Part shown: one piece after another, positions 17,453 through 60,735 of the stretch | Position numbering within the stretch: position 1 is the stretch's first letter | Layout of the letters: each line of letters opens with the position of its first letter | Assembly (NCBI RefSeq): GCF_036669915.1 | Contig: NC_089318.1 | Location: forward strand, 19,089,422-19,153,421 | Source of the DNA: Pocillopora verrucosa | Taxonomy: Eukaryota > Cnidaria > Anthozoa > Scleractinia > Pocilloporidae | Reading direction: 5' to 3' | DNA: 64,000 nucleotides | Notes under the pieces: model-generated | Told to the model about the DNA's origin: nothing | Databases searched by the model: none | What the model saw: the letters and a program-made list of their open reading frames with translations, nothing else | Translations under genes and position numbers: made by a program

Positions 17453-17464
17453 ATATATATATTT
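17341..17464. repeat. Poly-T tracts and (AT)n microsatellite
   Basis: Three T-rich runs (17,341-17,378) followed by an (AT)n array with a few G interruptions (about 17,390-17,462). Confidence 0.9.
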
Positions 17465-26904: not shown

Positions 26905-27010
26905 TTTTTTTCACTCCTGATGAAGGCACTAGACAGGAGTGTCGAAACGTTGGGTCTATGAATTGTAACTTCTTCGGTTACATTCATTAAATCTGTAAAC
27001 CAGAGTAGCA
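26905..27010 (+). mobile_element. Penelope-like 3'-end remnant with hammerhead-like core
   Basis: CTGATGA at 26,917-26,923, a 6-bp stem with loop (GGCACT-AGACAGG-AGTGTC), then GAAAC at 26,944 and GTC at 26,954-26,956 follow the hammerhead core order. Stem I is not well formed. The downstream text is unlike the other TRAF copies, so this is an insertion right after exon 3. Confidence 0.4.
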
Positions 27011-29365: not shown

Positions 29366-29402
29366 TTTTTTTCGGGGGGGGGGGGTGGGTGGGGGAGGGG
29401 TG
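29366..29402 (+). other. G-rich tract in intron 6 (possible G-quadruplex)
   Basis: A long G run followed by GGGTGGGTGGGGGAGGGG. Similar G-rich tracts lie at the same intron position in copy A (18,360-18,392) and copy C (55,100-55,120). Confidence 0.5.
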
Positions 29403-31710: not shown

Positions 31711-31749
31711 TATACAAAAACTCATTAAGTCATTTCTGTCGCTTAAAAC

Positions 31750-35488: not shown

Positions 35489-36433
35489 TTAACAGAAAAG
35501 TATTTCTCTGATTATTTCTTTAACCGATTGTCTCACTTCTCTGATCTTCCAGCAGTAAAGTAACGGGTTTAGTGCTGAATTTACGTAAACTAGAGTTACT
35601 GTAAATTGTCTGAGCACAGTAACAGACGATGACCGTCCACCATAGGTCCACAAAGCTGTAGTTATACCATGTGGAAGATAACAAACAGCAACTGCTAACT
35701 GTAGGCACATTACGCTGAACACTCCCTTCCTATATCGAGAAATATTCAGTGGCCCTGAACTTGAGTTGTTTGACTGCTCAGGTTGGATAATGTTGCCACG
35801 TACCTGAATTTCATGGCGGTGAAGTTTCCAAAAAATCGTCGTGTAAGACAAAATTGAGGTTCCAAAACAAACAGGTATTGTTATGTGGGTGTACCATGTT
35901 GTGATACGAGAATCATGCGCATGCATCACGGAGCATACAGCACAAAAAATCCAGAATACAAGAACGATTACTCGTGCCCTGTTCAGCGTCACAATTTGTT
36001 TATATCTTACCCTTAATGACAAAGCAAGAAGTCTGTCCACGCTTATTGCAGTCATTGTCAACAAAGATATGCCACAGAGGAGATACCCCACAATGAAACT
36101 GGTGAGAAATATATTATAACATTCATCCCATCGTTTTCTCACCGCTGAAATCCAGTACGTGACGGTTAGAGGCTCAGAAATGACACCAACAAGGAGATCA
36201 GTTGTAGCCAGGGATCTGAGAAACAGTTTTGATGGCGCGTGAAGAGTAGTCGCTTTGTCAAGGGCAATCAGGATCAGAATATTCCCCAGAGATGAACAAA
36301 TGGCCAGCAAAACATTGAACACCGAAAGAAATATCAGATAGCCGCGTATTCCTGCAGTTATTTCCTGAGAGCAAAACAACCGCTCGTAGGTTTTCTCCTC
36401 TAAATTTTCAGTAATGTTTTGGTAAATCGTCAT
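35489..36433 (-). CDS. Class A (rhodopsin-like) GPCR, 314 aa, intact
   Basis: Intact minus-strand receptor, convergent with the one at 31,750-32,703. Its N-terminus (MTIYQNITEN) matches that receptor, while TM3 to TM6 follow the other minus-strand copies (LRVRYKQIVTLNRARVIV; HAHDSRITTWYTH in extracellular loop 2). LATTD in TM2, DRL after TM3, CYLPHG in TM6 and NSALNPLLY in TM7 are all present. Extracellular loop 2 again lacks Cys. The mixed similarity suggests gene conversion between plus- and minus-strand paralogs, since the N-terminal part is closer to the plus-strand genes. It is the only intact member of its subgroup here. Ligand unknown. Confidence 0.93.
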   Translation of the reverse strand: MTIYQNITENLEEKTYERLFCSQEITAGIRGYLIFLSVFNVLLAICSSLGNILILIALDKATTLHAPSKLFLRSLATTDLLVGVISEPLTVTYWISAVRKRWDECYNIFLTSFIVGYLLCGISLLTMTAISVDRLLALSLRVRYKQIVTLNRARVIVLVFWIFCAVCSVMHAHDSRITTWYTHITIPVCFGTSILSYTTIFWKLHRHEIQVRGNIIQPEQSNNSSSGPLNISRYRKGVFSVMCLQLAVAVCYLPHGITTALWTYGGRSSSVTVLRQFTVTLVYVNSALNPLLYCWKIREVRQSVKEIIREILFC

Positions 36434-36473
36434 GTTTTAAGCGACAGAAATGACTTAATGAGTTTTTATACTC

Positions 36474-37737: not shown

Positions 37738-38583
37738 TTATCCAATCTTCCAGCAGTAAAGAATGGGATTTAATGTTGAATTTAGGTAAACTAAAATAAA
37801 CGTGTGCTGAGCAGCGAGAAAGACTGATGGTGTAACATTGTTCGGATCATAATTAATATCTGTAATTTGAAATGGCAGATAGCAAGCTATTAATGCCAAC
37901 TGCAGCCACAATGCACTCGAGACAGCTTTTTGTATCGGGTAATCAAGTGCACTCATCTGATTTGTCTGTACATTTAGTCGAGTTTGGTGTTGGCGGAGCC
38001 TCCAGAAAATCATTGAGAAGGAAAAAGTTGAGGTCGCTAAACTCAGTGATATACCAATGTAGTCATACCATGTTGTGATAAGGTCATTCCATCGTGAGAT
38101 CATTGCAGCCATTGTAGATACTATCAAGATAAAAGCCAGAGTCACGGAAATTCGCCTACACGTTACAACTTGTCTGTATCGCAACCCAAGCATTAGGGCG
38201 AGAAGCCTTTCCACACTAATTACTGTCAGCGTCAACAAAGAAACGGAACCCAATAAGTAACTAGCCATAAAAGACAGAATACTGAATAATCGGCAAAAAG
38301 TCCAGTTTCTGACCACAATTGAGATCCAAAAAGCAACAGAGAGTGGCTGGGAGATAAGACCAACGGACAGATCAGTTGTAGCCAGACAACGAAGCAAGAG
38401 TTTGGATGGCGGATGAAGGGAAGACTCGTGATGTAGAGCAACAAGAATCAACGTGTTCCCAAGAATGGCTGTAATGGCGAGAAAAATGTTCACAACCGAT
38501 AGAAAAGTTAGGTGCCAACGTAAATCCCCTGTTAAATCTTTCAATTTTCGCACTGTGAACTCTGTATGGTTTGCGGTTGACAT
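37738..38583 (-). CDS. Class A GPCR (second subtype) with truncated C-tail
   Basis: Receptor of 281 residues if it starts at the Met at 38,583 (MSTANHTEF, with an NHT glycosylation site). An upstream in-frame Met at 38,649 would add 22 residues without membrane character. TM1 has GNTLILVAL, TM2 LATTDLSVG, TM3 ends VERLLAL (ERL in place of DRY), TM6 CYLPF and TM7 [18 protein letters not shown] at 37,738-37,740 stops the frame right after TM7. Beyond it the same frame reads VRQAVNDILRKWFCS and a stop at 37,690-37,692, which is the helix 8 and tail of the paralogs. So one nonsense change has removed helix 8. It may be a recent pseudogene, or a receptor with a minimal tail. Confidence 0.85.
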   Translation of the reverse strand: MSTANHTEFTVRKLKDLTGDLRWHLTFLSVVNIFLAITAILGNTLILVALHHESSLHPPSKLLLRCLATTDLSVGLISQPLSVAFWISIVVRNWTFCRLFSILSFMASYLLGSVSLLTLTVISVERLLALMLGLRYRQVVTCRRISVTLAFILIVSTMAAMISRWNDLITTWYDYIGISLSLATSTFSFSMIFWRLRQHQTRLNVQTNQMSALDYPIQKAVSSALWLQLALIACYLPFQITDINYDPNNVTPSVFLAAQHTFILVYLNSTLNPILYCWKIG

Positions 38584-38649
38584 TATTGTGGTTTTCTTTT
38601 CCGGGAAATGATGGCGCAAATCTTGTGTAGCTTGATTGGAGCAGCTCAC

Positions 38650-41280
38650 CCAACTGATAAGTGGATGGAGTAATAAACACGTTGCCGTTTATCACAAATC
38701 ATGAACGGTGAATAAAGGCGTATATGTCTGAGATCATGAGAAACGTAAACATTTTAGTCAATTGTGGCCATCTATGCAAAGTTTGCATGTCATTAGACAG
38801 GAAATAAAGACTCTCATAGTGGAGTGTATTCTCGATCAAAACCTACCGTCTGCGTGGGAACACAATTTGGTAGAAATAAAAGTCATTGTCGTACTTAATA
38901 TATTCCACTAATCGTTGATTGTTAAAAGCAAAACAGCTGGATTTGCTTTCATCTGTGTATTCTTGCGGTTTAAAACACACATTCGCAGTTTTATGTCAGG
39001 TCTTGTGATTATATCCAAACAGTGAAACTTTTTCGTGACCAGATGGAGAACTTAGGGTCGATAGTTAGTTTCAATTAATTAAGGCGACATAGTAATTGTT
39101 TTCTCTGTATCTGGCCATAATTACATGTTATGCTTTGAAGACAAAATCGTATTTATGAGCAATGAGAAAGCTAGACTTTTTTTAAATAAAGTAAACACGA
39201 GTCATTATTGCTTACAATTTTGTCAAAATATTTGTTTTGCTTTCCGCATGCAGGTATGACTACGAAATCAAACGGTAGCAACTGCGCTAGCTTTCGTGAC
39301 TTGTCTATTGCTCAAGTACAGAATACTGATGATATTGAAGCACTTTCAAATGCGGATGAATCTGATTGGTTCTTGATAACAAAGACAGCACGCATTTCAA
39401 TACCGTTTACGTGCGAAGTGTTTAGCTTATTTCTTCCCTTCTTTGGTAAAATGTTTGTGAATGGCTCTTCTCAACTAAATGTTAGTTGCAATTGATCAAT
39501 ATTAGGATTAAGAGAAAAAAAAATTCAAAAAAGGAATTGGAGTGAAAACTGTGTTACGTGTTTTTTCCCTCTTCAGAGGGTAATAAAATACAGTAAAAAT
39601 TTCATTCGCCAGTCGTAAATGTGGTTTATATCAAAAAATTCTCAAGTTCACAATTCTTGTTAAAATAATATTTGAATAGATGGAAAGGGGGCCCTCTAGA
39701 AACCACGGGGCTTATACGAGGGAGACCTCCTTACTTATAAAAAAATGCATATGCTAACGATACGTGTTCATTGAGAACATTTCTTTTCAAAACTATCGAT
39801 CTTGATTATCAGTACTACTGATCAATCGATTTAGTAAAGAAACTTTGATGACACTTTTAAAAGCAAAAAGTTTCAGAATGCCTGATGAGGCAAGGAATTC
39901 CAAATTTTTGGTCCTTGAAAAACTACAAAAAAGTATTTAACACTGGTTCAAAATTGTTGATTTCGATAATCAGTGCCTCATCTGGTGTTAATACGGGTGC
40001 ATGAAGTTATTTGGTAACAAATAGAAATCTTAGGAAATGATGGCAGAAGTAAGCGGTTGTGATAGGAAAACACGAACTACAACAAATGGAACTACAACCT
40101 TACCCTTAAGTTCCATAAAAGAATATTTCAAGCGGATGCCCTCTTCGCCGAACGAAATTTTGTTAACATGAGAAGATAATTTCACTTTCGCCTTATTGAT
40201 TTAAGTTCCTACATGAAAAGCGTAGTCATTCGTCTCGGAAATACAGAATTTTTATATTTTAAGATATAGAACCGTTACGGTGCTTCACATTTATAAACTT
40301 GTTTACATGAATCGATAATTAAACATATCGAAGAAAAATCATCTTGCTTAGTAATAATAAAAACTACTTGCTCGTCAAGAAATAATAACGGCGAACCGAG
40401 TGTAAAAGATTTAGTTATTAACCTGCTGAAGTCGTAAAGGAGAAGATCACGTATTATGCAAATAAATGGAAATCGCGTATGAATGACTCTCAGGTGTGTT
40501 TGACAACTCGTGGGAATTAGCTAATAGGAATAGTTTATACCGTGATTAGAAAAAAATGTACACAAAAAACTATAGTTTCGGACAGGACAGTCTTATGACT
40601 TAAAGTTCAGGTTATTATATTATGATGCAGCTGGAAATAATCGATTCAAACTCAAGATAAGTACATGCGTATTTGACTTATTTATTCATAATGTTTGCAG
40701 CTACTTTTCTGCTTGGGAAGCAAGTATGATTCAAAGGGTATTATTGATGTATTTAGGAATTACACTGGAACCTGTCTTTCGAAAAATTAAGTCTACCCAA
40801 TAGCTATTTATGACACTTCTCCTACTATCGAGTGTTTTCCTTGCGTGGCATATTCGCTACCAGCAAATAATTCAATTAAAAAAGGTTCTTTTCGTTTACA
40901 CCTTTCAGATACCCCTAAATACTCTTTAAAGTCTTTCATGACGTACCCTGGGGAAGGGGGGCAGGGGTGGAGGGGGGGTAGTTTCTCGCTCAGAGTTATA
41001 CACACATCAGACAAAGCGCTCCTGTGGATATTGCACACTTTGCTCCGGGGCTTTATTCTACCCCTGGCTTAGTATTCGATGTATTTCATGAAATCATTTT
41101 TTTTATAAAATTCTTATTTCCTTGTTTCCCCCTCGACTCAGCACGCTGTGCCAGTTGGTACTCAGTACAGATAAGTTTTGTGCGGTGCTCCTCCATCCCC
41201 CGCCTCTGTTGTTGTTCTTTGATTTGTTCATGCGTGTTTTGTCTCACAAATATTGAATATGTGTGGGGATTTTTCCCAGT
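38650..41280. other. Intergenic, duplicated DNA; no supported gene
   Basis: The segment 39,640-40,200 matches 12,160-12,720 and 40,590-40,800 matches 13,600-13,820. At 40,980-41,060 a short stretch (CTCGCTCAGAGTTATACACA and CTTTATTCTACCCC) matches the DNA next to the GPCR remnant at 61,066. The ORF at 39,208-39,495 contains an acceptor-like site and an acidic stretch but has no recognised similarity. Confidence 0.45.
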
Positions 41281-41402: not shown

Positions 41403-44400
41403 ATGGCGGCGGGTCAGAATATTCCAGAACTTGGAGGCTATGATTTTGAGTTTACAAGTGTTGTTCCCGATGATTTAGAATGCCCTGTGTGTCAGTTAAC
41501 AATGAAAGATCCCATACAGATCGGAGGATGTGGCCACAGGTTTTGTAACATTTGCATGGAAAGCTTGTTGAGGTAAAGGCCTATCATTGTTTGTTGACGG
41601 AAACAAGTTACTACTGAAAACAATCAAGCTTACCTGAAGGTTGAATGACGATATTGACCGATTGATTCTCTTCCCAAGGGTATCATAGTGTGCCTCGGCT
41701 ATATATAAGTAACTGCTAGATAGCTTTGTTCGGCACAAAACAATTCAAACAGGTTAGAGTTTAGTGTGAGTACTCGTGAATGCGACGGAAAGCTATCAAA
41801 TATTACATGAAATAGTTGTTGGCTGCCTTTTAGGTGTCTTCGATTGCTTCAGCACAAGTGCATCTAACAGAGTTATCGAATGATAAGATCTTTCTCGTTT
41901 ACTTTTTTAAATATGAGTCGACTTAAACTAATCATAATTTGTCTTTTAAGTGCCACTCTCGCTAAGAGCGGTCCTCTCGACTTCTCGTCTCGAAATGCAG
42001 GTGTAAATCGGGCTAAAAAAGCATATCAGTGGATAGTTTATACATTAATGAGGTCACTGCTTGTCTCAAACCCGCGGGTATCTCGCTAGATTTTATCCAC
42101 CATCATCTTGAAAACAACGCAAATCCATGTGTTTACTCAATTACGCACATGTAAAGGTTATTTGCATAATTATGAAAATTGACCAAAATATCTCTTTGAC
42201 CGTTCAAACTTCGTTTGTTTATCTTCTACGTAAATTGTTTTAGGTTTTTATAACAACTAGATGGAAAATTAATCCCAAGTTGTCTTAAAACGTTGCATAA
42301 ACGAGATAAGTCGTAACGCTAGCAGGACCAACAAAGTAAACAAAAGCGATCGAAAGACGATTCCCTTGAATCAGGTCATGAACCACGCACAGAGTGGAGA
42401 AGATCAAAGTTAAATAACACAACTTGGCACTCTGGTCATTGCATATATACTGCGTAGTTTAAAGGTAAATGGAAACAATTGAAATACACGTACGTTTCGG
42501 TATTATTTACAAAACAATACGTGTACACTCTGCAAGAATCCTTGCAGTTTCGATCAAGGTTTAGCACACGGAATGCAATCATCAGGCTTTCCTTTCTGAA
42601 AATTTGCCGCCATCATTAAATATTTCATGCTCCTAGAGTCCACAAGGTTGTTTGCGACAGACTTAACCTTTTTCTGCGACCATCAAAACCAGCTAGGCAA
42701 ATATTGACGTGACTATGCTAATTAATTCATGCCATGCAACTGTTGGTAACAAAAACAAAGACACAAATTACACTTCTGATAACGAATTTTAATATCGAAA
42801 GTCATGAAATGAAATGAAGCACAGAGTTAGGAATTGCCTTCATAAATTTTTAAACTTCCTTAAATATCAAATAATATTGGATGAGTAAGTCCGATTTCGG
42901 AAGTAACATCTGCTACCTCCTTACTCTGTGTTCTAGGTAAGCGCTTTCTTCTTCGTCTTCGTCGTTTGCATCCTGCTCTTGATCTTTTGCGGCTCTTCTT
43001 CGTTTCGTAGTAGAAAGCCTCGAAAACTAGCTTTGAACCTGGTTCTTCGTTAGCCATTCACTTCTGATGAATTTTCTTGCACCATCTGCCTCTCTGGCCT
43101 TTCTCATTTCTGCTGCAACTTGCGCGGGATCGGCTTTTCTGCCTGTTCTTTCACCGGTTTGAAACCTGCTTGAAAGATACCCTTTCACTTTCTCCGTGAA
43201 CCTTGTTCCACTGCCTCGCGTTTTCTGAAGAGCCCAGCCCATCTTGCACACTTCGCTTTTAACTTTGCCCGTTACTTCGAGTGTTGCTATCTTTGATTCA
43301 AGCGTTAGGGAGGAAAATTTCATGGCCCAGTCACGTCTAAGGCTGTCGTAAAGGCTCTCTGAAGCTTTTATCTCGCTGTGCTTCCCGAGGTGCACATGAT
43401 CTTGGAGTTCTTCTGAAGAAGTGAACTCAGAGCAGCATCCTTGTTCTGGGCAGTGAAACAGCATGTCTTTATTATCGCTGGAAATTTGGCTGAGATTGCG
43501 ATTCTGTTTTATGGCTCGTGGTGCTATGGCAAAGAAACCATGATTCCCAACTTCCCTTAACACAACAGGGCCATGCTTCTCAAGGATAAGCTCTGACCAT
43601 GGTATTAATTTGCCCTTTCCGACCCCATAGGCTTTTGAGAGACGAAGACCGTCCTTTTCATAAGCAAAATTGTGAAAAAAGCTGAAATTATTGATGCGCT
43701 TAATTTTTACTTCTTTTCTGTTACTATCAATCTCGCAAACAGCAGCTGATGATCCCTTCACTTGTCTCACTTTCAATGCCTCGTGCATGTCAGCTGCTGT
43801 CAAAATGTTATGGCCTTCATTGCAGTATCTACGAATTGCCCCTTTCATTGGACTGATGATGCGATCGCAAACATCCTTGCCAGATTGAGGTTCAGAAAAA
43901 TCATACCTTTAGAATAAGGAAAGGAAGTGTCTCAGTTAGAATAACTGATCTATCAATACCTGTCATACTAATACAGATGTTGCTACGTAAGTTCAGTGTA
44001 TGTTCCTGCCTCTAACAGCACATTCTGCTCATCATGAAAATGTTAAAATGAAAATTATACTTCTAACGATTCTAAAGAAGAGGCAACAAAAGGACTACGG
44101 TAAATAGACAAACCTACTTGAATTATCCTAGGATGTCCTTTGAGAAAGGTAAGCATTCATTCGCTACTTGTACTTTGCATAGAGCAATTATAAGTAAACT
44201 ACTGCGGTTTAGCAAAAATGCGTTTTAATTCTCTTTTAAACAGGGGTACGACAGTATGCGATGTTTCAAGGGTTCAGAGGATAATTACATTCCTGCAGTA
44301 TATTATCAAAAGATTTTGATCTATTTTGTTTGTGTCGGCTCTGAAATACCACTTACTATAATGAACAGAAACAGCATGAAAGTTTAGTTCTGAAGTCGAT

Positions 44401-47400
44401 CAAGTTGCTTTTGGAAGGCGCATGCAACTTTGAAGAATGTGTTCGTGTTGTAATCTAAAAAGCCTTTTTAACTTACCTCATCACCTTGATTCCATTCCTT
44501 GTGCCAACGTTAGAGGCAGCTGCAATTAGATTATTGTTGTGGTAACAGCCTGCGCCATCTGATCGCAAAAATACCTCGTTTACGGTAGGCTTGATCTGTT
44601 TGATGTTGCCGAGAAGGTTTTCCAGAATTGCGCAAACCGTATACCAGTGTTGGGCACAGCTTTAGAATAGATGAACATATGACAATCTCAAGGCCGTTGT
44701 TCTCTGCATTCCTGGTAATAACTGAACTAACGTGCCAATTTATTCCTCTCTTTCCGAACCACTCAGACTGCTTTTCTCTGTATTTCAGTTGGATGAACTT
44801 CATGGCCCAGTCCATGACAATAAGGGAGGCATTCTTTAGGAGGGACGTGAGCAAATTCTGTTTTATTCTCTCCTGGTTCTAAGTCCTGATGATATGCGCC
44901 TTCCACTGAAAAATCGCCTCTCTGGCTTCATCGTGGTCGTGTTTCAGGTCCTCTTTCTTCTATATGTTGTCAAAAGTTATCGAAGGAGTTTCAATTTCTT
45001 TTCCAACTGCCTGAATCACGGATTTCAAACTTTCGCAACTATCACGGCTAACTTGATGTTCATGGGAACAACTTCCTTGAAACTCGGGGTTTTGAGGATC
45101 ACTTAAAGAAAAACACATACTATGGTCAGGGCAAGGACTACCATCTTCCTGACAGTGCATCCCATACTCTGTCTTCATGTATCGCTTGGCATCCTTCAGT
45201 GTTCTTCGAACTTCTTCACACCACTTTTCAGTTGCCCCACCCTCCTCCAATTCCTTTACTATCTTGTGCATTGCTTCGAACCCTTCCGCTCCGCTTACTG
45301 CAGTGTTGTCTAGCCCTTGAAGGGACCACCTTTGAGAGGCCTCTCTTACTTGCAAAATTCTGTAAAGCGTCGATTTTCCAAGGGGGTCGAAATCTTCCTC
45401 GCAACAGTGTTTAAGATACTGTTCAATCATCGTTGATCGTCCAACAATTCTGATGACATTTGGCATGACGAGATGATCCCTAGAGTCAAGTTTTAAAGTC
45501 CTTGTTCCATAGGCCACATCTTGATAAAAATATGGTTGGTCTACAAAAGACAGAAAATGATCAAGTTTCACCAAGTCTATTCGGACTCTGTGGTGTGGCA
45601 TTTTGTTGAGGTTAAAGCCAGCACCGACATTTTTGGCATGAGCCCTTGCCTTCTTAATTTGTTGATCGCTCAGTTTTTCAAAGGGCTCGTGAATTTTTTT
45701 TAAGAATCTCGCTGAATAGCGCAGTGCATATATGCTCAAGATCTGGGTTTTCAGGTTCTTCGAAGGTGCCTGTTTGTATGCGGTTATCAGCGTGATCAAG
45801 TCATCCGAGCAAACCTCATTTACTGCCGGGGTCTTAAAGGCTTGCAATAACTCTTCGCTGTCTCGTGGAGCGATTACATTGCAAACAGCGCGACATGCCT
45901 CTTCCACGTGATCTAAACATAGGGCTTTTTCATTTGCCGTTGCTTCTTCCCATTCCTTTGAAAGCCTAACGGAAACATGTTTAACTTTTTGTTCTGTGAG
46001 TGAAGCAATCCTTGTCATAGCCTCATTGTAGGCCTTTAACACGTGCACATCAACTTCTTTTTCATCTGATGAGTCATCGTTTGACGAAACCTCAGCCATT
46101 TCATGCCACTGCTCAGGAGTCCAAGTGGAATCCCGATTGTGTATTTCGACGCCTACAGCTGGAGAAAAAAACATCGCCGATTTTGCCTACATTTGATTAC
46201 ATTTATCAACGTCGGTAAACTAATGGAGAGTTCCCATTCCGTTCTTAGTGAAACAAATGCGGACTAATTGCGCTAAGCCTCACAATTCATTTGCATGTTA
46301 GACACATGATTTAAAGTTATCAGTATACGTACCTCGACAAGTATGATATGCCACAAGAATCCTTTTCTTCGGCTAGAAGCCGTTTTTGCTCCCCCGATGT
46401 TCTTAGCCAGAGCCACTCATTCTTTAACCGGCTGTTATGTAACTTTCTGCAGCTGCTTCAGATGGCTGAAATGTGCACAGAAAAGTTATTCTTATAATTT
46501 ACCTAATTTGACCTATTGCGCGAAAAAAGTATCGTCATGGTCATTGCCATTCAAGAGATTATAAACTGTTATATTCTCTAGATGCGAACTTTATCGGTGC
46601 AGCTATCATCGTTGTTTAATCTTTTTTAAAACGGCTGCCTTGTTTGTTTAAGTTGTATATTGTTATGCCATTAAAACGCCAAAACGAAACTGAGGCAATT
46701 TTTTTTACTAGTTCTCGTGGTGATTGGAAGTAATATTCAGGAATTGGCTTTTACTCCCTCTCTCTTTTTTTTTTATAAATTCCTTTTTATTCATTGCAAT
46801 TTTCATTTGGACATCCTTTTCCCTGGTTTTGTTCTCGCTCCAGTTTTCCTTCTAATTACTTATAACAAGAGCAAATAACGGAACATTTTATCTCTTGGTT
46901 CCAAAGGTTAGTAGTGTTATTTGAATTTCAAGACTTAATTATATTTTCCTTGAAAAACGGCTTCAAATTTCAGCCCAAAATTTAACCTTTGAAATTTTTA
47001 GGGCCTATCCGGATCCATATCAACAAAAAAATTTTTTATCTCGAAACATTTTCTATCTTCAACAACACCTTCTAAAAGTGTGGATGGTTTGTCGCGACTT
47101 GACAAATATTGGCTGAAGCAGGAAAATCTCCCAGTGCACCGCCGACAAAATTTCCCACGGGTGAAAACTGGACTAAAGCGACTAAATAAACAAAGCCGTG
47201 TTAAACTTGTCCATCATTTGTTACAAAAGGTACCACCAGAGTAGACAGTAGTAGTCTTTTCTTGCGAAACTCGTGGATTTTTAAAACTTTGAAAAGACTT
47301 AAGATGAATCCTGGCAATTCAAGTTTGAATCCATTGGCAAATTATGCCGGCCAGTCATACGAGCAGATCAAGCGCTGACGAAATTTGACAGCTTTGAAAT

Positions 47401-50400
47401 TTTTAAGCCGATGCAAAAACAGAGACATTTTTCATGGCAAAAAGTTGTCCTATGATTTTATGGAGACGATTCTATTTCAGTCTGCAAGGGCAGATAGGTC
47501 CTTACGAATAAATTATTAGAAAGATACTAGCCTTCTCACAATCGAGAAATTGAGTAATATTACTCACGTGATCCGACTGCAACTATAATTCCGTAAACTT
47601 CGAAAACATCTCTAGCCAATCTGGCGTTGAACACTCGGTCTCCTTTCACTGCCTCACATTTTCCTTTGTGCTCTGGATGCTGGCAAGTACTTTTACCACA
47701 TTTCCAATGTTTTCCCAAAGCGTTCCGATGTTTAGAACAAACAAACATCTGTTTTAATTTTCCCATTTCGAGGCCAAAATGACCGGAACGAAACAAAATT
47801 AACTCGTACTCTAAGATTTTGCTGGATAGGTGGTAGTACTTTAAATGACTTGATACGTCGTCCTGGCATTCCAGGAGAGATATCGGGGCTGAAACTCCGC
47901 TGAAATGCCCGCAACCACTACAATCTTTGCTTTCCAAGAAACAAGTAGACATTTTTTTTTGGGATAAATATCTCAAAACATATGAATAACTGAAGTAACT
48001 CTCCTCTCCGCCAAGCAAGCACGTGGGGCACAACCTTAGCTTAAGCGAGGGGGCTGGATAGAGGTATGCTGGGACCATGGCCCCCCTCATGAATTTTGAA
48101 GTGGGGCGGGGACGAGGAGGTGGGTGCAACATTGCAAACTCAAATACCATCCCCATTTCCTTTACTTCAGTCCATTCTAATTAACATTATATTAACTACT
48201 TTTTAGGTTCAATTTTCACACCCGCGAAACGAGTCATATATCAAGTGAACTATTTAGCATAATCGCGTCACGCAACACACCAATCCGGGTTTGCCTAACT
48301 GGTTTGAATGGTCGCAGGAATAGTTAGAGTCGTCCCTCAAGAACGTTGTGGTTTAATGATGGCAGCAAATTTTCAGAAAGGAACGCCTGATGATTGCATT
48401 CCGTGTGCTAAACCTTGATCGAAACTGCAAGGATTCTTGCAGAGTGTACACCTATTGTTTTATAAATAATACCGAAACGTACGTGTATTTTAATTGTTTC
48501 CATTTACCTTTAAACTACGCAGTATATATGCAATGACCAGAGTGCCAAGTTGTGTTCTTTAACTTTGATCTTCTCCACTCTGTGCGTGGATTATGACCTG
48601 ATCCAAGGGAAACGTCTTTCGATCGCTTTTGTTTACTTTGTTGGTCCTGCTAGCGTTACGACTTATCTCGTTTATGCAACGTTTTAAGACAACTTGGGAT
48701 TAATTTTCCATCTAGTTGTTATAAAAACCTAAAACAATTTACGTAGAAGATAAACAAACGAAGTTTGAACGGTCAAAGAGATATTTTGGTCAATTTTCAT
48801 AATTATGCAAATAACCTTTACATGTGCGTAATTGAGTAAACACATGGATTTGCGTTGTTTTCAAGATGTTGGTGGATAAAATCTAGCGAGATACCCGCGG
48901 GTTTGAGACAAGCAGTGACCTCATTGATGTATAAAATATCCACTGATATGTTTTTTTAGCCCGATTTACACCTGCATTTCGAGAATTATTTCTTATAAAT
49001 TGATGAATTTTTAATATGCAAATTAAGGTCGAAGGGAAGGTTCTCTTCTGATCACGCTGGTATGAATAAGATTTCAAGTGAAGTTTTCATATTTTGTCTG
49101 TGAACTGACTGAATATATCTTGCAACTTGTAGCAAGAGAGAATTCCGTGAGCTATATAATTGCAGTCGCAGCACCCTCGACAAAATCTATGAAAATTACA
49201 CTTTCAATCGCTGTCTACACAAGGGGTCTAGCCAAAAATCATTTTTGGCTTGTGGCGACGCGAAAAAAGAGAATTAGAGATCAATCAAACTATTATTGAA
49301 ATATGTGTCCTAAACCCTTTTCATGGGCAAAAAATCAAGGAAAACTTTTTTTGGGCGGGAAGTCGAGAGGACCGCTATTAGCGAGAGTGGCACTTAAATG
49401 CAAATGTTAATTACATGCAAAAAGTCCACCATTATGGGTTCCTCACGCGACAGAATATGGCCCAGCGATGAAAAACGCCAAGACTTGAAAGTAAATAATC
49501 ATAATACACACGATGAACGATTTTTAATATTTTGTTTGTTTTCTGATTTTGTTGTTTGCCTGCTATTGCAAATTTCCTTCTTTCAGGAGCCATTCTCCAA
49601 AATGTCCAGTTGACAGACAGCCTCTTTCACGTGACAAGGTAAAGATAACGCACAACTTCTTACTTGTGGGTCACGCAAACTAGCGATTCCACGTTCTGCT
49701 CTCAGTGAACAGATCCTTAGGCATTTTAACGCACAACTCGAAACGCAGTTTCCTTCAAATGGGTGGCCCCTATTGCAAAATGAAGTCAAAACAAAACATG
49801 TCACTGAGGCACAAGGGTAGGAAACAACGTTGCTCTTTCGTTTGTCACAAACGCAGAAATTTGTTTTAATTGACGTAGGATCTTCACTCTTCGACGTTCA
49901 TGTTCAGGTAAATGTTTGTGTTTTTATAAAATAAGCCAGATTCTTCGAGGGCAAAGCCACTGAAAATTAAAGTTTATTTTGAAGCAATAGTTTGCATTTT
50001 CTATTGGTTTACCAGCTTAACAACTTGGGATGTTGAAAGAACACGAGGAAAGTTTGTAAATCGCAAGCTGGTGGAGGCAAGTGATTGACAAACGTTTCTC
50101 GAATTCTCCCGACATCATGGGTGGGTTATTACGCCGGTAAGTCGATAGAAAGTGCGTTCCATCGCTTAATTATCTTCTACTCACCAATGCCTGTGATTGA
50201 TCACGGTTCATTGGGAGATATGCTGGAAAAGGAGAATTGTCTTTAATTATTACAAGTAGAGTACAAAACATATCCTTGTGTCTGGGTTATCAGATATTTC
50301 CAGATGTCGCTTGTCATCGCAGAATTCTGGATCTCGAAGTGAAATGTTCTTATGTTGGGTGTCCTTGGACTGGAGAACTCCGAGCTGTGCAGGTAATGTA

Positions 50401-53400
50401 TCTACGTCATATTCACCGTAAAGGCGTTCTCTATCACTTCATTCACAGTTGATCCCAAAAATTAAAAATCTCAAACATTTTAATTTGTCTCCTACATAAT
50501 AAGCAAGCATTGCACTTATTCCTGCTACTCTTAACCATCGAGGCAGCAAGACATGATGTTATACGAAGCATATATAGCTCAACTCAACAGTTTCTTGCAC
50601 AATAGTAACTATATGGACTGAACAGCGGTGTTATTCTGGTATTTGCAATCTGAGGTGTCATGGTCAGCAGTTTGCGCGCAACATGACAGATTTTCTTCCT
50701 GTCTGATAATCTTTGATAGGTGCCTATTATACTAAACGTTTATTAAATATTTATCTCTAGTCTTAGGGATATCATTATTATCAACAAGTCACACGTAAAT
50801 TTCACATTTCTTTTCGTAGATCCTAAACCGTCAGTTAACCGATTGTTTCGCTGTCAATCAAGTCTCTCTTTTCTTTAGCCTGTTGTATGTCTTAGCAGAT
50901 TGGATCATGATTACATTACAGTTTATTATCGATAAATAATGATTTCAGAAACATCAGTCAGAATGCCTGTTCAATGCAGTGGAGTGTCCAAATGAAGGAT
51001 GTAAAGAGAAGCTCACCATGCGAGATATGAACAATCACATGACAACGGAATGTGTCTGGAGGGAAGTTAGTTGTGAATATTGTCGAGGATCATTTATCGT
51101 GAAAAACAAGCAGGTTTGTTAACAAAAATGTGTTTCTTATATAGCTTCTACAAGGGTAGCATCTGAAAGTGGCGACGAATTTCAATCTTTATTGAGTCAA
51201 GATTTTCTTAAGCTCTAGCTATCTTCTCTTATTTGATATAAAATTGTTACACGGAAACATCTTACTTAAATTGGGCTTAAATGTTGCGTTCGAAAACTTT
51301 GATCCCTTACTGATAAAAAAAGTGGGTATTTTACTTCATAAATTTCGTCAGTACAACAACCTGTCTTTATTGGTCATAATTTTAATAAGACGGAGAGAAT
51401 TTTGAAAGTACATTAGCTATAAAAAGTTCTTTTCGATTTTTCTTCAGCAACATCATAACGTCTGTCAAATGTTTCCGGTTCAATGTGCCAACAATTGTGG
51501 TCTGAGTAATATTCCACGAGAAAAGGTAACATTTAATATTGTTAGTGATTCTCAGTAATTCGAACGAGAGTTTAATTGAATGTTCATGCACACAGCCCGC
51601 ATGGGACATATTGCTGCTCTATCTGAAACGTCACAGGCTAAGTCTTGTTTTATGTGAGCAATTTGGAGACGTTCCGTGCTCAAATGGTCAAAGAACATGC
51701 ACTATTGTTTTGAATATATTCCTGGCTTCAGTCAGAGGACATGAAGGTCGTCATTTTCTGCCTTAAATGGGCCTTCCACAATTGAATCTAGGTAGCTCCA
51801 TAATAGGGAAACAATCCATAACACCGTAACGATCCCTTCAAGGAAGTTTGCTCCGTTAAACTTTGCAGTAAAATGCCTTACACTACTAGGGAACATTTTT
51901 AAATTTTGTCTCTGAATTCAGTTCCCTGATTCATACATTACGAAATCTAAGGAGTAATTTTGAGACACCGAATGATTTTTTTTCGCTAAGCACGAGAGAG
52001 GATTCCTGTGGCTGCTCACAGAAGACTAAATCTTCTCTATCTTTTTGTTTTAGCTCTTGGCTCATATTCGTGATCACTGTCCTTTCACAGAAATTGATTG
52101 TAAATACAAGAACTTAGGATGCCAAAATGCGGTATGAAACAGCTTTCAGTTTATATTAAATTGCAGGTTTGGCGGGGAGGTCGTATGTTTGTATTGTATT
52201 TCCATATCATGTTGTAAAATGAATTAAAATGGAATGTCAAATATGTAAAAATTTTTCATTTTGTAGGGTTTAAAAAATTCCTAATAACCTGTGCGGCAGT
52301 TGAATCAAACTGTTTATTTCTGGAAGGAACAAGTAGATCAATAATTAACAAAAATTTAATGTTTGGATTGTATTAAAAGAGTTTAATGACCACATCGTCT
52401 TTTTTTCAGTTTCCAAGAAAAAGAACGAAATCTCACTTAGAATCACACATGGAAAGCCACTTGAACCTAGCTCTGTGCAGCCTTGAGATCACTCAGAATC
52501 AGGTTAAAGAAAAGTCAAAGCAGATTGAGCAATTGACATCCAAATTCAAGGATCAGTCACAGCAGTTGAATAATCAGTCACAACAGTTGAATGATCAGTC
52601 ACAGCAGATAGAAAGATTGGTGGCAAAAAATACAGAACAGTCACAGCAGATAGAAAGATTGGTGGCCAAAAATACAGAACAGTCACAGCAGTTGCATAAT
52701 CAGTCACAACAGTTGAATGATCAGTCACAGCAGATCGAAAGATTGGTGGCCAAAAATACAGAACAGTCACAGCAGATAGCCATCTTAGAACCTCTGAGAA
52801 GCCAGCCTCAATATCAAGCCGCAGTGGTGGACCCAACCGCGACCAAACAAACGAAGGACCAAACAAACAAGATAGGGGCAACCAATGCCTATGTTAAAGA
52901 GGGTAAGTTTCTATAGAAACTTTGGCGTTGCGTCGATGGGGGGTATAATAAGATATCTTGGTCAGTTTTATCAGCTGAGTTGATGACATAAATTGGCCAC
53001 CGTAAAGAATTTCTAAAGCTGACGTTTCGACCGGTAACCCTCCGTCAGAGTGAATAGAGAAATGGTTGCGTGCGTTTTATAGGTAGATAAAATGGAAGTC
53101 TCACCGATAATCACACTCTAAAACATTATTACTCGCAAGGTAAAGCACGTAGGAAGCGGCTAAAGCACGAAAGAAATGTAGAGAGACACACGAGACGCAG
53201 TCGAGCCGCTTCCCACGTGCCTTACGATAGAACAGAGCGGAGTCAAGGCTTCTCTATTTGTTTTATGATAAAGAATCCGCTAAATTCCCCACTCATTGCT
53301 TTCTATTTTTTAAAACAAACTTTCTTTCCAAATCGATCAACAGTGTCGTCAGCATGCTCTATACTCTCTTAAAGGAAGCTACAATAAGCCAATCAGAATC

Positions 53401-56296
53401 CTTGATAGAATGGTTCAATTAATCTGATTGGTTGAACAAGACTAAAGCTGTCAAAAATGTCAAACCATTAAAGTTCACAAACCATGAAAGTTTACAATCT
53501 TGAGTAGTTTACAAACTGAAATAGTTTGGCACGTCGAATCCAACACTGTTGCCTAAAGTAATTTAGTCTCTAATACAGAATCTGAAAGTGAAATGTTCGG
53601 TGAAATCCGGCCGAATTGTGGCTCATAAAAACACGCGAGTTTTTTCCATGATAGATAGAAAACATACTGCTCAAGGCGTATGTTTTATGAATGAGCAACA
53701 ACCGAAATCACAGGAATATAAAGATTGATCGGGATGACGGCGTCGTAAAACTCGGCTGCTTTGAGTGATGTAGCCTTCCACTGAACGCATCGGAAAGGAT
53801 ACCAGAGCAAGCTCTTATTTGTTCACTTGAAGGGCGGCCGATGTAATTTCTGAGGCTTGCTTCACCGCGATGACCGAAGATCGCCACTATGAGCCAGCCG
53901 TGTTGGACCTCAGCATAATTGCAGTCGCTCTGACACCGTCATGATTGATGAATTTTAACAGTTATGCCAGTTTGGCTATATTTTTTTATCATTCCCGTGT
54001 TGTTCTGTTTTGTTTTTGAACACGAAATTATATGTACTACACGAGTGTCAACTGTGTTTTGATTTTTATTACCGTATGTAAGCTTGCAATCTAACTGAGT
54101 GTGAAAACCTTCAAAACTCGGAATGTCAATTTCTTTTTCTTTGAGGATTTTCGTATCTGCTTACGTTATAATCACGCCAATTACGGCGCTTGACATGTTG
54201 CAAACCTTTGTTTAGGGACTTGTCAGAAATTAGCAGGGGGGGAGGGGGGGTGGAAACAGAGGGGGGGTCACAACTTTTTGAGCCTCAGAAAAGGGAGGGG
54301 TCATGAAAAATGGGCAGTTAAAAGGGGGAGGGTCATGCAAATATATGCCCGTGATCATGTAGAGGTTCACCCACAGAAGAAAAAGGAAGTTCTTTATTTG
54401 GAAGAGGTGGATGATCATGATGAATGTGAGGTAGATGAAGGGGATGAGGCATTACCCACTTGTTCTAGTGATGAAGACTTTGTATTGGGAGAAATAGGAG
54501 AGTCGAGTGATCAGTCGGACTCTTAATGCTGTCATCGAAAATGTATGTATGTAGCATGACAAAGAACAGATTAGAAATATATTTTGAGTTTTCATAATAC
54601 TGACGCACCCTAGTGTATTGCAAGAACTAGATTTTATCATTTATACAAGAGGGGGAGGGTCATGATATTTTAGGCCAAGCTCAAGGGGAGGGTTAGCAAA
54701 TTTCACTCCCATTGCAGGGATGGGTCACCTAATTTCCGAACCCAAATTTAGAATTCCCCCCCCCCTCCCCCCCTGCTAATTTCTGACAAGTCCCTTAGTC
54801 CTTCTATTTGCCGACTCACTTGTTCCGCCGGATTCAATCTCTCTGACGAAGGGCTAATGCTCGAAACGTCAGCCTTTTTACTCTTTAGGATGGCCAATTT
54901 TCGTTTTCAACTCAGTTGTTAACTCCAAATTACATGTTATACTCTCCCACCGACGCAGCACCATAGTTTCTTTAGAAACTTACCCCTTTATTCATTTCTC
55001 TTGCTCTATGTTCTATACTCTGGTAGAACACGCTGTTTCAATCAATGACAGCGCGCGTTATACCCGGACTTTATTAAAATATTTGGTAAGATTATTTTTT
55101 TGAGGGGTGGAAGGGGGTACTGGTGTGTAGATTCGCTCATAAGCTAACGTTACGAAGAGCTGAGTCATTTGAACTCCGAGTAAAACTACTGGGTTATGCC
55201 GGCCTTAAATGAAATCTAATTGATGATCGTGATGTATTTAGTATTGTGGTCATTTTAATTATCTATTGTTTTTGTTATTTATTACAGGTGATACTATGAA
55301 ACAGGGCTTCAAGCCTAAATCAATCCATTATACTGAAGTAGGTATGAAGGTATTGTTTTTTCAAAGGTTTAGGAAACTTCGAGGAACAGTCAAGTACGTC
55401 GGACCTGTACTTGTACACGGACGTGTACTTGATTTCATCGGCGTAGAATTAGATCCGTGTGAAGGTGAATATCGATCTATGAACATTGAAATGTACTGAT
55501 AAAATTAAGAGAAAGTTATTGCTCGTAGTAAAAGTGAGTAAGTTCGTGAACTTGAGACTTTAAAAAGACTGTATCAAGTACCTTTGGTTCAGAAGAGCTA
55601 TTTTATACGCTTTGGTCTAGGGAGCTGTCTTAAAGCACTAACATTGATAGGCATCATGAAATTGTATTCTGAAGGCAATAAAACAAGAGTACTCATGGAG
55701 GTTTAATACCGAGATAACCCGCCCCAAGATCGAAACGTAGTCCTTTCATGATGAGGGTTTGTGGAAAAAGGTTCTCCCCTCATTCATAGTAAAACTAGAC
55801 CTGCATTTAGATTAAAACAACTGGTTAGTGTGTTTTTTAGTAGTAAAACAGAGTCGCCTTTTTATAATGATTTTCTCTTACCTTAGGTAACTGAAAGTTT
55901 TTTTTTTCTTCTTTCAGAATTACCGAGTTGTTTAAGTCACCGTGAGAGCAACGGAATGTGTGAGGGAAAAAGATACTTTAGCTGGTGGGTAATGTTATGT
56001 CTCTCGCTTAAGATAATTTTTTTATCCCAGAAATTCTTATTTGATTTATACGTCACATGACATCGATGGCGTATGATATATTGATAAGGACGGAATTAAT
56101 TCTGTAACGTCTCCATTTACTCATGCACATCTGTTTTCGGTTTGATTTATTAAAAATGACAACAGATATTTTTTGTTTTTTGTATTAACCCTCAGTGCAC
56201 CAGGTAGAGGCCTCTTCATTGAGTTTTGTGACGTCATTGAGTGTTACAGATGACGATAACAGTAATGTGGCTGCTGTTTCTTTGCTTCCAATGTGA
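41403..56296 (+). CDS. RING/TRAF-zinc-finger/coiled-coil/CAP-Gly protein, 451 aa, nine exons, open
   Basis: Exons: 41,403-41,572; 49,587-49,638; 50,294-50,392; 50,949-51,113; 52,054-52,131; 52,410-52,902; 55,288-55,464; 55,918-55,984; 56,242-56,296. All introns are GT-AG, phases agree, and the sum is 1,356 nt with one stop. Residues 27-66 form a C3HC3D RING (CPVC, CGH, CNIC, KCPVD) as in TRAF6. About 92-215 carry TRAF-type zinc fingers (CSYVGC, CPNEGC, CEYC, CKYKNLGC with their H-x-C partners). About 215-320 are heptad repeats with QSQQ. About 360-435 form a CAP-Gly-like domain (VGMKVL, RGTVKYVGP, FIGVELDP, EGKRYFSC). There is no MATH domain. The likely role is a cytosolic E3/adaptor in TRAF-type ubiquitin signalling; this is inference. 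Intron 1 holds a 7.4-kb transposon and intron 6 nested MITEs, so expression needs checking. Confidence 0.8.
41950..42621 (+). repeat. Left terminal inverted repeat of the transposon
   Basis: About 670 bp, matching 48,351-49,393 in reverse orientation at high identity. About 375 bp present in the right repeat (48,982-49,358) are missing here, at about 41,985-41,990. Confidence 0.85.
42913..43906 (-). pseudogene. Transposase exon 3 (catalytic end, C2H2-like finger, basic tail)
   Basis: The exon starts at 43,906 after an AG acceptor and begins YDFSEPQSGKDVCDR, probably holding the third acidic catalytic residue. It continues with a domain containing FHNFAYEKDGLRLSKAYGVG and a CPEQGCCSEF...HVHLGKH zinc-finger pattern (C-x4-C-x12-H-x4-H), then a Lys/Arg-rich C-terminus. 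A TAG at 43,027-43,029 interrupts it after LTKNQVQS. Beyond it the same frame runs on (FSRLSTTKRRR) to 42,913. It is joined in phase to the exon ending at 44,477. Confidence 0.7.
44477..46158 (-). pseudogene. Transposase exon 2 (RNase H-like core), with stops and a frameshift
   Basis: The acceptor is CTCCAG at 46,159-46,160 and the donor GTAAGT at 44,471-44,476. The frame is open for about 400 codons (acidic start with SSNDDSSDEKEVDV, then a helical region and PYFYQDVAYGTRTLKL). Two stops follow at about 44,960 and 44,887, with readable sequence between (KKEDLKHDHDEAREAIFQWK). Next comes VMDWAMKF, a candidate first catalytic Asp, then a frameshift near 44,640. RSDGAGCYHN, a candidate second Asp, is in the other frame. 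The motif order Asp...Asp...Asp/Glu over three exons fits a DDE/D transposase. The catalytic assignment is inferred. Confidence 0.7.
46200..47560. other. Transposon interior without coding sequence
   Basis: Intron-like DNA between transposase exons 1 and 2. No ORF or repeat is supported here. Confidence 0.5.
47568..47952 (-). CDS. Transposase exon 1, Cys/His-rich N-terminus
   Basis: The likely start is the Met at 47,952 (MSTCFLESKDCSGCG). The exon encodes 128 codons plus one base, with many Cys and His: CSGCG, VCSKHRNALGKHWKCG, CQHPEHKGKC. These probably bind zinc and may bind the transposon ends. The donor is CAC|GTGAGT at 47,562-47,567. The phase (1) fits exon 2 at 46,158. The frame is open upstream to 48,156, but that part is Pro-rich and may be leader or untranslated. 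Confidence 0.6.
48351..49393 (-). repeat. Right terminal inverted repeat of the transposon
   Basis: About 1,040 bp. It shares the outer 35 bp and the inner 630 bp with the left repeat and has an additional roughly 375-bp block between. Confidence 0.85.
52546..52790 (+). repeat. 21-bp (heptad) coding repeat in exon 6 of the TRAF/CAP-Gly gene
   Basis: Nearly perfect 21-bp units encode seven-residue repeats of the types DQSQQLN, DQSQQIE, RLVAKNT and EQSQQIE. They are arranged partly as 42-bp double units. At least eleven heptads occur here and fewer in copies A (17,762-17,990) and B (29,065-29,200). They encode a parallel coiled coil, where TRAFs normally have one. Confidence 0.88.
52950..53115 (-). 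mobile_element. Penelope-like 3'-end remnant
   Basis: On the minus strand it reads CTCTGACGGAGGG...GTCGAAACGTCAGC, a diverged relative of the hammerhead-type tail at 54,841-54,960. A matching piece lies in the same intron of copy A at about 18,140-18,260. It therefore predates the duplication of these two copies. Confidence 0.45.
54212..54797. mobile_element. Nested 580-bp MITE with 27-bp inverted repeats and G-rich ends
   Basis: The inverted ends start GGGACTTGTCAGAAATTAGC followed by a G run (54,215-54,250) and are mirrored at 54,760-54,794. A TTA flanks both sides (54,212-54,214; 54,795-54,797) as a possible target duplication. Inside, GGGAGGGTCATG-type motifs recur three times near the edges. 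A central 82-codon ORF (54,278-54,526) encodes a Lys-rich start and a strongly acidic end (EEVDDHDECEVDEGDE, SSDQSDS). It may be captured coding sequence; function unknown. Confidence 0.7.
54841..54960 (+). mobile_element. Penelope-like tail with hammerhead-type motif
   Basis: CTGACGA at 54,843-54,849, a short stem GGGC-TAAT-GCTC, then GAAACGTC at 54,863-54,870. The core fits CUGANGA...GAAA...UC. Stem III would be the self-complementary ACGT, which can pair only between two molecules, as described for minimal hammerheads that act as dimers. Confidence 0.5.
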
Positions 56297-57637: not shown

Positions 57638-60290
57638 TAAATAAATAAATAAATAAATAAATGACAATTTATATAGCGCCAAAAGCTCTAAGGCGCTTCA
57701 CAATCAAAGAAAAAAATAAAAATAACAATCAAAGGTAATCATTCATAAAAATAATGCTTAAAAAGATAATTTTTAAGATTACGCTTAACAGCGTTAAGAT
57801 CTACACTACATTTTATGGTTTCAGGAATGTCATGCCACAGCTTAGGTGCAGAGACAGAAAAGGCGCGATCGCCATAAGATTTCAACTTGGAGCGAGGAAT
57901 CACCAACAAATTCCTACTCGATGATCGTATAGACCTGATAAGCTTATAAGTTTCTAACAAGTCACTGATATAACTAGGGCATAAATTATTTAAAGCTTTA
58001 AAAGCAAAAAATAAGATTTTAAAAATAATCCTCTACTCCACGGGGAGCCAGTGCATTTCCCTCAGTAAAGAAGTAGCGTGATCATGCTTGCGACCACATA
58101 AGATCAGCCATGCCGCACAATTCTGGGCTAATTGCAATCTATGAACTAAACGTTTCGGAAGACCATATAACAGAGAATTACAGTTGTCTGATCTGCATGT
58201 GACGAAGGCGTGTAATAACGCCTTAGTACTACTAACTGACAAAAACTTTCTAGTCCGAGAAATATTCCGGATGTGAAAAAATGCAGATTTACAATTTACT
58301 TGACGTTCCATATTTAACTTATTGTCAAAGATTACACCTATGTTCTTGGCAGAGTGCGAAGGCTGTATAACAGAACCGGCAGTCGCTGTAAACGAAGGAA
58401 GCTGAGAAGCAGACAAATTACCCGATCCGATGACCAAAAGCTCAGTCTTATCATCGTTTACTTTAAGCTTGTTCAATGACATCCAAGTTCCAATATCTTG
58501 TAGGCAGGCTTCGATTCTCGTAGTAGTAACTGATGAAACTCAGTCAAGCGAAAAATAAATCTGAAAGTCATCTGCATAGAAATGGAAGCTCATATTATGT
58601 CTTCTTATAATGTCGCCGAGAGGAGACGTATACAATAAGTACAAAATCGGACCTAGAACAGATCCCTGGGGAACTCCAAACAATCAAATCAGAGTGACAG
58701 GAATTTGATCCATTTATGCCAACAAATTGACTTCGGTCTGTGAGATAAGACTTAAACCAAGCAAGAACCTTGCCTTTGATACCAAACCGAGTATTAAGTC
58801 TGTGAAGTAATAAACCATGGTTGACCGTGTCAAATGCTGCAGAAAGATCGAGCAGTAATAAAACAACAGTACAGCCACGATCCACAGTACATAAGATGTC
58901 GTCATGAACTCTCCGGAAGGGAAGTCTCAGTGTTATGCAATTTCTTGTAAGCAGATTGTAATTTCTCATCAAGGTTGTTGTCATCAATATACTGCACAAG
59001 TTGTACCGCAACCGATTTCTCAATCAATTTAGAGACGAACGGAAGGTTAGAAACAGGACGAAAATTCTTAAAAAATCTTCAGTATCTAAATTAGTTTTCT
59101 TTTACAATGGAATAATCAAGGCAGTTTTGAGTAAGTTTGGTATAAGAGCCTCATCTAAGGAACGATTTACAATATCAGTTATGACTGGTAACAACCTTGG
59201 TAAACATTAAGTTAGCGCATAATCTGGGAAGGGATCGAGAGCACAAGTTTTCACTCTGGAGGATTTAATAAAGTTAGCTATAAGGTCGGTAGAAACACGT
59301 TGAAAAGTCGCAAATTCACAGGACCGGGACTGAGTCGCAGAGTTATTCAAGGAAGGGACATTCGGAAACTATGAACAGGTAAACTATCGCGTATACGTCG
59401 TATCTCGTCAATAAAGAATGATTTGAACTTTTCAGCTATAGCCATATCCGAACCCACAGAAGGATAACGTACTATTGGTTTCCTGTATAAAAAATTATTA
59501 ACTGCTTTAAATAATATTTTCTGGTCTCCTTGGTTGCTTTCAATTATATATGAAAATTGGTTTTCTTTTGCACAACGAATCAAGTCATTCACCTCACGAG
59601 AATGTTCGGTGTATAATAGATGATTAGCTTCGGTGTTATGCGCGCGCCATCGTCTATCCAGTTTTCTTCTCTTTCTCTTTGCAACTTTGATTTCATCCGT
59701 AAACCATGGCGCATAAGGGGAAGGGTAACAGACCTACGAATGATTGGGGCATGATTGTCGATCATAGATTGCAGCGGAGTGGAGTTGAATTGATCAACAG
59801 CTAATGAAAGGTCATCATTTAGAGGTGATCTAATTAGCGCAGAGTCTTCCAAGTCAGAGGAGAACTTATACATGTCAATGGCACGTAAACGTCGGAAAGA
59901 TAACATTTGATCTTGAGCAACATGTTTACAAAATCCAGATTACACCGGATCATAAAATGATCAGAAAATGCAGGGTCAAAGACTCTTGAGATTCTTGATG
60001 AAAGATTGTTCCTCTCTAGTGATAACGAGGTCTTATGCGTAGAATCATTTACATGCTGGCGAAGGTTAAATGAATGGCCAGTAAATCGCCGACCAGCATT
60101 ATTTTGAGAATCAACATGAAAGTTAAAGTCACCAGCAATCATAAAATAGCCTGATGCTGTCACTATATGGGCAAGATAGCTAGCAAACTCATCAAAAAAC
60201 AGTGACACATTGGATGAAGGAGGACGGTACAAGACAATTAAATGGACAAAATACTTCGTAGCCCTGAATTCCAGATGTTCGAAAGAGCAA
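57638..60290 (-). mobile_element. CR1/L2-like non-LTR retrotransposon, 5'-truncated and dead
   Basis: Minus-strand LINE ending in an (ATTT)n-type tail (57,638-57,661). In order on the minus strand: endonuclease C-terminal part (YRPPSS, AGDFNFH, SDHFMIRC) at 60,232-59,930; linker with AIAEKFKSFFIDEI; reverse transcriptase with [24 protein letters not shown] and YADD (58,567-58,578); then KLKVNDDKTELLVIGS, LLYGLPKRLVHRLQLAQN and a C-terminal domain with APKLWHDIP to 57,739. At least four frame changes or stops break it. It is 5'-truncated inside the endonuclease. It interrupts DNA that is contiguous near 11,860 in unit 1. The CR1/L2 placement rests on the tail and motif style. Confidence 0.85.
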
Positions 60291-60294
60291 TGGG

Positions 60295-60735
60295 ATTATG
60301 TTTATGTTTTTAATATAAGTTTTTGTTTATGTTTTTAATATAAGTTTTCCCTTGCAAGTTATCTGGTTTTTGATTCAAATCACTTTTTGGATCAGGAAAT
60401 GTTTTACACAAATCTAATTTCAGTTTGAACCCTCATAGTTAAGACCGTCTGCATAAACCTTAAGCTTAGTGTACTATAGTGATATTGTGGCGTCATTGCT
60501 GCAGTCATCTCAGCTGCCCGATCTACTGAGTAGGTTAACCCTGCCAACCCGCCTAGACGGGTCACCCCATCTATCTTGTAAACACGATTAAGATAAAATA
60601 AGAGATTATATGAACGGGCGGGTTACCTCACCTACCTGGGCTCCCACTTCCATGTAAACAGGCCCTAAAGCGTACAGTTGTCGCTACATCTGTAATTTAG
60701 TTCGTATGCTTTCTTAATGCTGCGATCAGTATTTT
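60295..60735. other. Intergenic; 25-bp direct duplication at the LINE 5' end
   Basis: GTTTATGTTTTTAATATAAG with its TTTTT end occurs twice in tandem at 60,299-60,348. The rest matches 11,870-12,060 and 12,780-12,920 of unit 1. No gene. Confidence 0.55.

Follow-up and report, generated by a model that had tools for sequence, protein, structure and literature searches.

TRAF proteins combine a RING domain and zinc fingers that pair with a UBC13-type E2 enzyme, a coiled coil that oligomerises the protein, and a MATH domain, which normally binds receptor tails and usually defines the family. Innate immune signalling is important in coral symbiosis and disease. Excerpts of earlier studies describe an expansion of TRAF3 in Stylophora (PMC5730576) and TRAF-like genes that are specific to corals (PMC6208414). 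Here, we describe a 64,000-nucleotide stretch of the genome of the coral Pocillopora verrucosa (contig NC_089318.1, positions 19,089,422 to 19,153,421 of the forward strand; hereafter the window), and in it a gene, copy C, that is apparently functional and belongs to a TRAF subfamily of the Pocilloporidae whose C-terminal MATH is replaced by a CAP-Gly domain. Like the E3 ubiquitin ligases TRAF6 and TRAF2/3/4/5, copy C has a RING, TRAF zinc fingers and a coiled coil, but it carries a CAP-Gly where these have MATH/TRAF-C. The MATH-TRAFs of the corals Oculina, Porites, Stylophora and Pocillopora are close relatives in the RING/zinc-finger half and differ in their C-terminal MATH. On the CAP-Gly side, the protein P0089 shares with copy C a C-terminal CAP-Gly, the lead-in to it (F.P.S..I..GM.VL) and almost the same C-terminus; unlike copy C, it begins with a long body that includes a coiled-coil stretch, matches neither RING nor TRAF fingers, and has the signature GKHDG. 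CYLD also places CAP-Glys in a TRAF/NF-kB signalling context, with NEMO, ubiquitin and a variety of peptides as their ligands (PMC13376213, excerpt), but it has three CAP-Glys and a USP domain and belongs to the deubiquitinases rather than the RING proteins.

On the plus strand, copy C spans ten GT-AG exons of matching phases (41403-56253), and its open frame gives a product of 478 amino acids. A preceding sequence-only reading had proposed nine exons in one open frame ending at 56296; the open frame and the matching phases held, whereas one exon had been missed and the last exon ends with the stop codon at 56253. Exon 1 (41403-41572) contains the start codon together with the greater part of the RING, as placed by the RING ligands of the spliced protein, and exon 2 (49587-49638; AG/GT sites, phase 2 in and 0 out) the RING end. 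Exons 3 (50294-50392; a zinc finger) and 5 (51448-51525; a TRAF zinc finger) follow from the splice model, and exon 4 (50949-51113), with TRAF zinc fingers, has 100% protein identity to the P. verrucosa relative P0001. It was through P0001 that the missed exon 6 (52054-52131; 78 nt, phase 0-0, acceptor TTTTAG, donor GTATGA, 100% identical to P0001) was found, and it encodes the zinc finger LLAHIRDHCPFTEIDCKYKNLGCQNA. Exon 7 (52410-52902) encodes the last finger, the heptad coiled coil and a linker, according to the splice model and to a helix in the P0001 model, and the CAP-Gly is spread over exons 8 (55288-55464; first half, by splice model and Pfam), 9 (55918-55984; the loop with a degenerate GKNDG, RESNG, followed by GKRYF, by splice model and alignment) and 10 (56196-56253; the end and the stop, by splice model). 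Exons 8, 9 and 10 are entered in phases 1, 1 and 2. The nine-exon splice without exon 6 likewise uses canonical GT-AG sites with agreeing phases and gives 452 amino acids. An element resembling a DNA transposon lies in intron 1 (window 41945-49398); its terminal inverted repeats of 633 nt (41988-42620 / 48352-48984) are 98% complementary, and it has three long open reading frames (ORFs) on the minus strand, none with a Pfam match.

In the 478-amino-acid form Pfam detects an N-terminal RING (zf-C3HC4_2, E 2.6e-9), TRAF-type zinc fingers (zf-TRAF, E 1.2e-25) and a CAP-Gly (CAP_GLY, E 3.8e-11, 43.2 bits against a cut-off of 26.5), and the 452-amino-acid form has the same three families. MATH was not found in the 478-residue protein at E <= 0.001. 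The architecture put forward from the sequence alone, a TRAF RING, zinc fingers and coil with a CAP-Gly in MATH's place, is thereby borne out, as is the identity of the exons encoding the CAP-Gly. All eight RING ligands are kept (C27, C30, C43, H45, C48, C51, C63 and D66), a C3HC3D set which we take to be the TRAF6 pattern, and the top fold match is the TRAF6 N-terminus. Heptad-like repeats were recognised by eye in exon 7, and the predicted model of P0001 has a single helix at 228-341 as well as a CAP-Gly fold, in a region that is 97% identical to that of copy C. Copy C is thus a TRAF-derived protein and not a full TRAF, as the C-terminal MATH/TRAF-C is missing, and it is predicted to have E3 ubiquitin ligase activity. 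Nor is it a CYLD, since a USP domain was not found in the protein (Pfam, E <= 0.001) and there is a single CAP-Gly stretch.

A tandem array on C7 (19014027-19182635), with the window at its middle, comprises 13 copies or fragments, all on one strand; it was mapped in a survey of 263 kb around the window with one 5,000-N gap (C7:19230422-19235421) outside the mapped copies; exon-by-exon models were made for nine of the 13. Outside 19.000-19.263 Mb additional copies were looked for by exon-8 DNA only, and all 12 matches of this exon in the genome lie inside the array. The frame is open to a common C-terminus in five of the 13 (c03, c04, c05, c10, which is copy C, and c11, copy D); c01, c07, c09 (copy B) and c13 are broken, and c08 (copy A), c02, c06 and c12 are deleted forms. 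Within the window, all on the plus strand, lie exons 9-10 of c07 (402-468 and 678-735), a copy with two stops in its coil; copy A (14035-18696), with exons 3-4 partly deleted and exons 9-10 not found; copy B (24075-30517), which has frameshifts and no longer has one splice donor and one RING ligand; and exons 1-2 of copy D (61501-62244), whose open frame continues beyond the window. Copies A and B had already been read as dead and the 3' end of a further copy had been placed at 1-820, and both statements agree with these results. Spliced by the rules of copy C, c03 equals the NCBI protein P0002 of P. verrucosa letter for letter. Because the exon order recurs along the array and c03 equals P0002, a chance join or artefact is excluded, the more so as relatives occur in two other species, and the earlier view of an established family stands.

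Splicing to a MATH domain elsewhere, the outcome that the sequence-only reading had named as speaking against it, is also rejected on the MATH matches listed. In the 263 kb, eight queries from MATH regions gave no MATH; every match at E < 0.1 was due to the coil segment that the P0013 query still contained, and the others were weak. The genome-wide listing of MATH matches, which has at least 62 entries, contains none within 1.7 Mb and none on C7 between 17.25 and 21.21 Mb. The sequence itself establishes which domains are present, how the exons are arranged, that the copies form an array and that MATH is lacking nearby, and we are highly confident that a domain swap in a real gene has taken place.

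Protein searches, which need shared exact words and are limited in length, scored 16, 2036 and 38 candidates in three runs. With the CAP-Gly part as query six proteins were returned among 16 candidates, every one from Pocillopora or Stylophora. With the whole of P0001 as query, 87 of 2036 candidates reached E <= 1e-10, and the CAP_GLY carriers listed among them (P0001, P0002, P0003, P0006, P0010 and P0018) come only from these two genera; P0005 of Stylophora scores slightly below the CAP_GLY cut-off. The architecture of TRAF plus CAP-Gly is thus also present in P. meandrina and Stylophora pistillata, and within these searches it was seen in no other protein returned. Relatives from Oculina, Porites and Desmophyllum that have a C-terminal domain have MATH, which is also found in P0013 (P. 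meandrina) and in P0014 and P0029 (Stylophora). In P0018 the CAP-Gly stands ahead of the RING, an order that would be expected of a gene model fused across two tandem copies. The claim that no such family has been described holds in part: the titles and abstract openings listed by literature searches name no TRAF with a CAP-Gly, and a term search of PMC10236652 gave no TRAF, TNF, CAP-Gly or CYLD, but public annotation already contains these proteins under the names TRAF4/5/6-like.

The domains differ in the constraint they are under. Over the ten pairs of the five open copies, the ratio of nonsynonymous to synonymous divergence (dN/dS) is 0.13-0.50 for the RING and zinc fingers, 0.26-0.74 for the coil and linker, and 0.68-1.44 for the CAP-Gly exons. 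In two pairs taken as independent, picked by similarity without a tree from copies that look partly mosaic, the corresponding proportion-based ratio (pN/pS) is 0.23 for the RING and zinc fingers versus 1.00 for the CAP-Gly (nonsynonymous to synonymous changes 16:18 versus 52:15; Fisher p 0.003), and a second pair set gives 0.33 versus 1.02 (p 0.008). The RING and zinc fingers are conserved and the CAP-Gly is not. When columns were picked after viewing the alignment, the CAP-Gly core gave ratios of 0.15-0.85 in all ten pairs and the CAP-Gly loops 0.83-3.85. The loop from GVELD to GKRYF, which contains the GKNDG position and was picked afterwards for its known role, gave pN/pS values of only 0.65 and 1.13 in the two pair sets, and positive selection on the ligand loop is not supported.

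This difference between the two halves in both pair sets is also what favours the alternative that survives best, in which copy C would be a dominant-negative or decoy TRAF: the fusion would mainly have removed MATH, mixing of its coil with those of MATH-TRAFs would blunt receptor signalling, and the CAP-Gly would be a drifting remnant. The loss of GKNDG in copy C, the high share of broken or fragmentary copies and a protein model that ends before the CAP-Gly (P0008) all point the same way, as does the fact that the genome still has MATH matches, at least 62 of them. Yet the CAP-Gly frame is open in five copies, whose exon-8 lengths (162, 162, 165, 177 and 177) differ by multiples of three only, the core columns, albeit chosen post hoc, keep lower ratios, and the Stylophora member P0010 has GKHDG; we regard a decoy as possible though rather unlikely.

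The ligand-binding signature bears on a second alternative, a ligase targeted to microtubules or their plus ends, in which the CAP-Gly would bind the C-terminal EEY/F of alpha-tubulin, EB or CLIP and deliver the RING there. The nearest solved CAP-Gly sequences in the PDB are those of dynactin (best E 1.1e-3; CYLD 0.095), P0010 and P0089 have GKHDG, and c11 has THDG, all of which would suit such a role. The loop is, however, degenerate in copy C, c03, c04 and c05, and this explanation, which we regard as improbable, therefore applies more readily to P0010 of Stylophora and to the ancestral protein than to the copy in the window. Excerpts of two papers give acidic C-terminal [YF] motifs as typical CAP-Gly ligands and NEMO, ubiquitin and other peptides as ligands of the CYLD CAP-Glys (PMC13376213, PMC10320722). 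Since its GKNDG loop is degenerate, an altered ligand seems more likely for the copy C CAP-Gly than tyrosinated tubulin tails.

As to the origin of the CAP-Gly, a search with the domain of P0010, a more conservative member from Stylophora, had two hits among 38 candidates, P0010 itself and P0089. P0089 has 816 amino acids and is 62% identical to P0010 over 99 residues, lead-in included, and 41% identical to P0001 over 93. A hidden Markov model (HMM) of the TRAF CAP-Gly, built from copy C, P0001, P0002, P0003 and P0006, scores P0089 at 68.0 bits and the best of 27 other CAP-Gly stretches of the coral's own genome at 33.7. The donor was thus probably P0089-like, and an exon swap from a gene of this type is likely the simplest reading of the sequences. 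The sequence-only reading had suggested a CYLD-type or microtubule-end-type binding module; descent from CYLD with retained binding to NEMO or ubiquitin is very improbable, as the HMM prefers P0089 to eight CYLD-like stretches on C3 (17.6-22.1 bits, a comparison unfair to them because they are half domains), and the fold is common to all CAP-Glys and does not discriminate. These stretches belong to a cluster of ten CAP-Gly half-domain matches (G000:C3:21570443-22149076), of which eight were translated and look CYLD-like (PGSGTCDGTFRNKRYFTC type); the one searched matches CYLD best (3.2e-5), and the cluster is possibly a CYLD-like expansion in the same coral.

We therefore prefer a domain swap that re-targeted a ligase. 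The last exons of a P0089-like coiled-coil/CAP-Gly gene would have been joined 3' of a TRAF coiled coil before the lineages of Pocillopora and Stylophora diverged, with local tandem duplication afterwards. The RING and zinc fingers would serve as a TRAF6-like E3 that pairs with a UBC13-type E2, the coil would oligomerise the ligase, and several CAP-Glys per oligomer could bind a peptide or partner by avidity, such that recruitment would follow the CAP-Gly ligand instead of MATH-bound receptor tails. Re-targeting by the CAP-Gly is, in our judgement, evenly balanced, and the same even chance applies to the whole chain of swap, P0089-like donor and CAP-Gly-recruited ligase.

Several observations weigh against this reconstruction. 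Eight of the 13 copies are broken or fragments, c04 is without the exon-6 acceptor (skipping exon 6 preserves the frame), and the end of exon 7 is rearranged in c11. A CAP-Gly pN/pS of about 1.0 is explained equally well by relaxed constraint. P0008 (P. verrucosa, 413 amino acids, three member sequences) ends before the CAP-Gly; its model seems to continue past the exon-7 donor into intron sequence, which may be an error of annotation or a genuine short form, and by this example some products may be without the CAP-Gly. The fusion is known here from genome DNA and the annotation products P0001 and P0002, and the donor was assigned from the CAP-Gly sequence. In a tree of 25 chosen RING/zinc-finger rows with 200 bootstrap trees, a branch with support 99/98 parts 11 MATH rows, nine of them from named corals, from the seven CAP-Gly rows, but a twelfth MATH row, the long sponge P0033, falls on the CAP-Gly side. 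With P0033 the CAP label needs two changes (a single change occurs in 0% of the 200 bootstrap trees), and under a midpoint root the CAP-Gly rows are a grade; a single fusion suffices only if the long P0033 row is left out.

Between the TRAF copies the window contains single-exon ORFs resembling G protein-coupled receptors (2140-3093, 7547-8383, 31747-32703, 35489-36436 and 37738-38688). The three that were scanned of the five, at 2140, 7547 and 35489, match 7tm_1. Those at 2140, 31747 and 35489 lie inside segments repeated at >= 90%, and the duplication unit may therefore carry both kinds of gene. Between copies C and D, on the minus strand at 58033-60295, are ORFs that resemble retroelement fragments; the only one scanned (58595-59023) has a weak RVT_1 match (E 5.7e-4) below the cut-off.

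A family that kept its ligase half and has a CAP-Gly in exchange for MATH offers a natural experiment on whether a TRAF-type ligase can be re-wired through a change of its recruiting domain alone, with a fusion loosely dated before the Pocillopora-Stylophora split and a donor that can be tested. Automatic names such as 'TRAF5-like' conceal that the usual mode of binding to TRAF receptors is not to be expected of these proteins. More speculatively, and with considerable doubt on our part, the array might represent a lineage-bound class of TRAF-derived ligases in which the RING/zinc-finger engine stays constant across the copies and the CAP-Gly recognition surface diversifies fast, a diversification perhaps aimed at factors with which symbionts or pathogens target the microtubules or the NF-kB signalling of the host.
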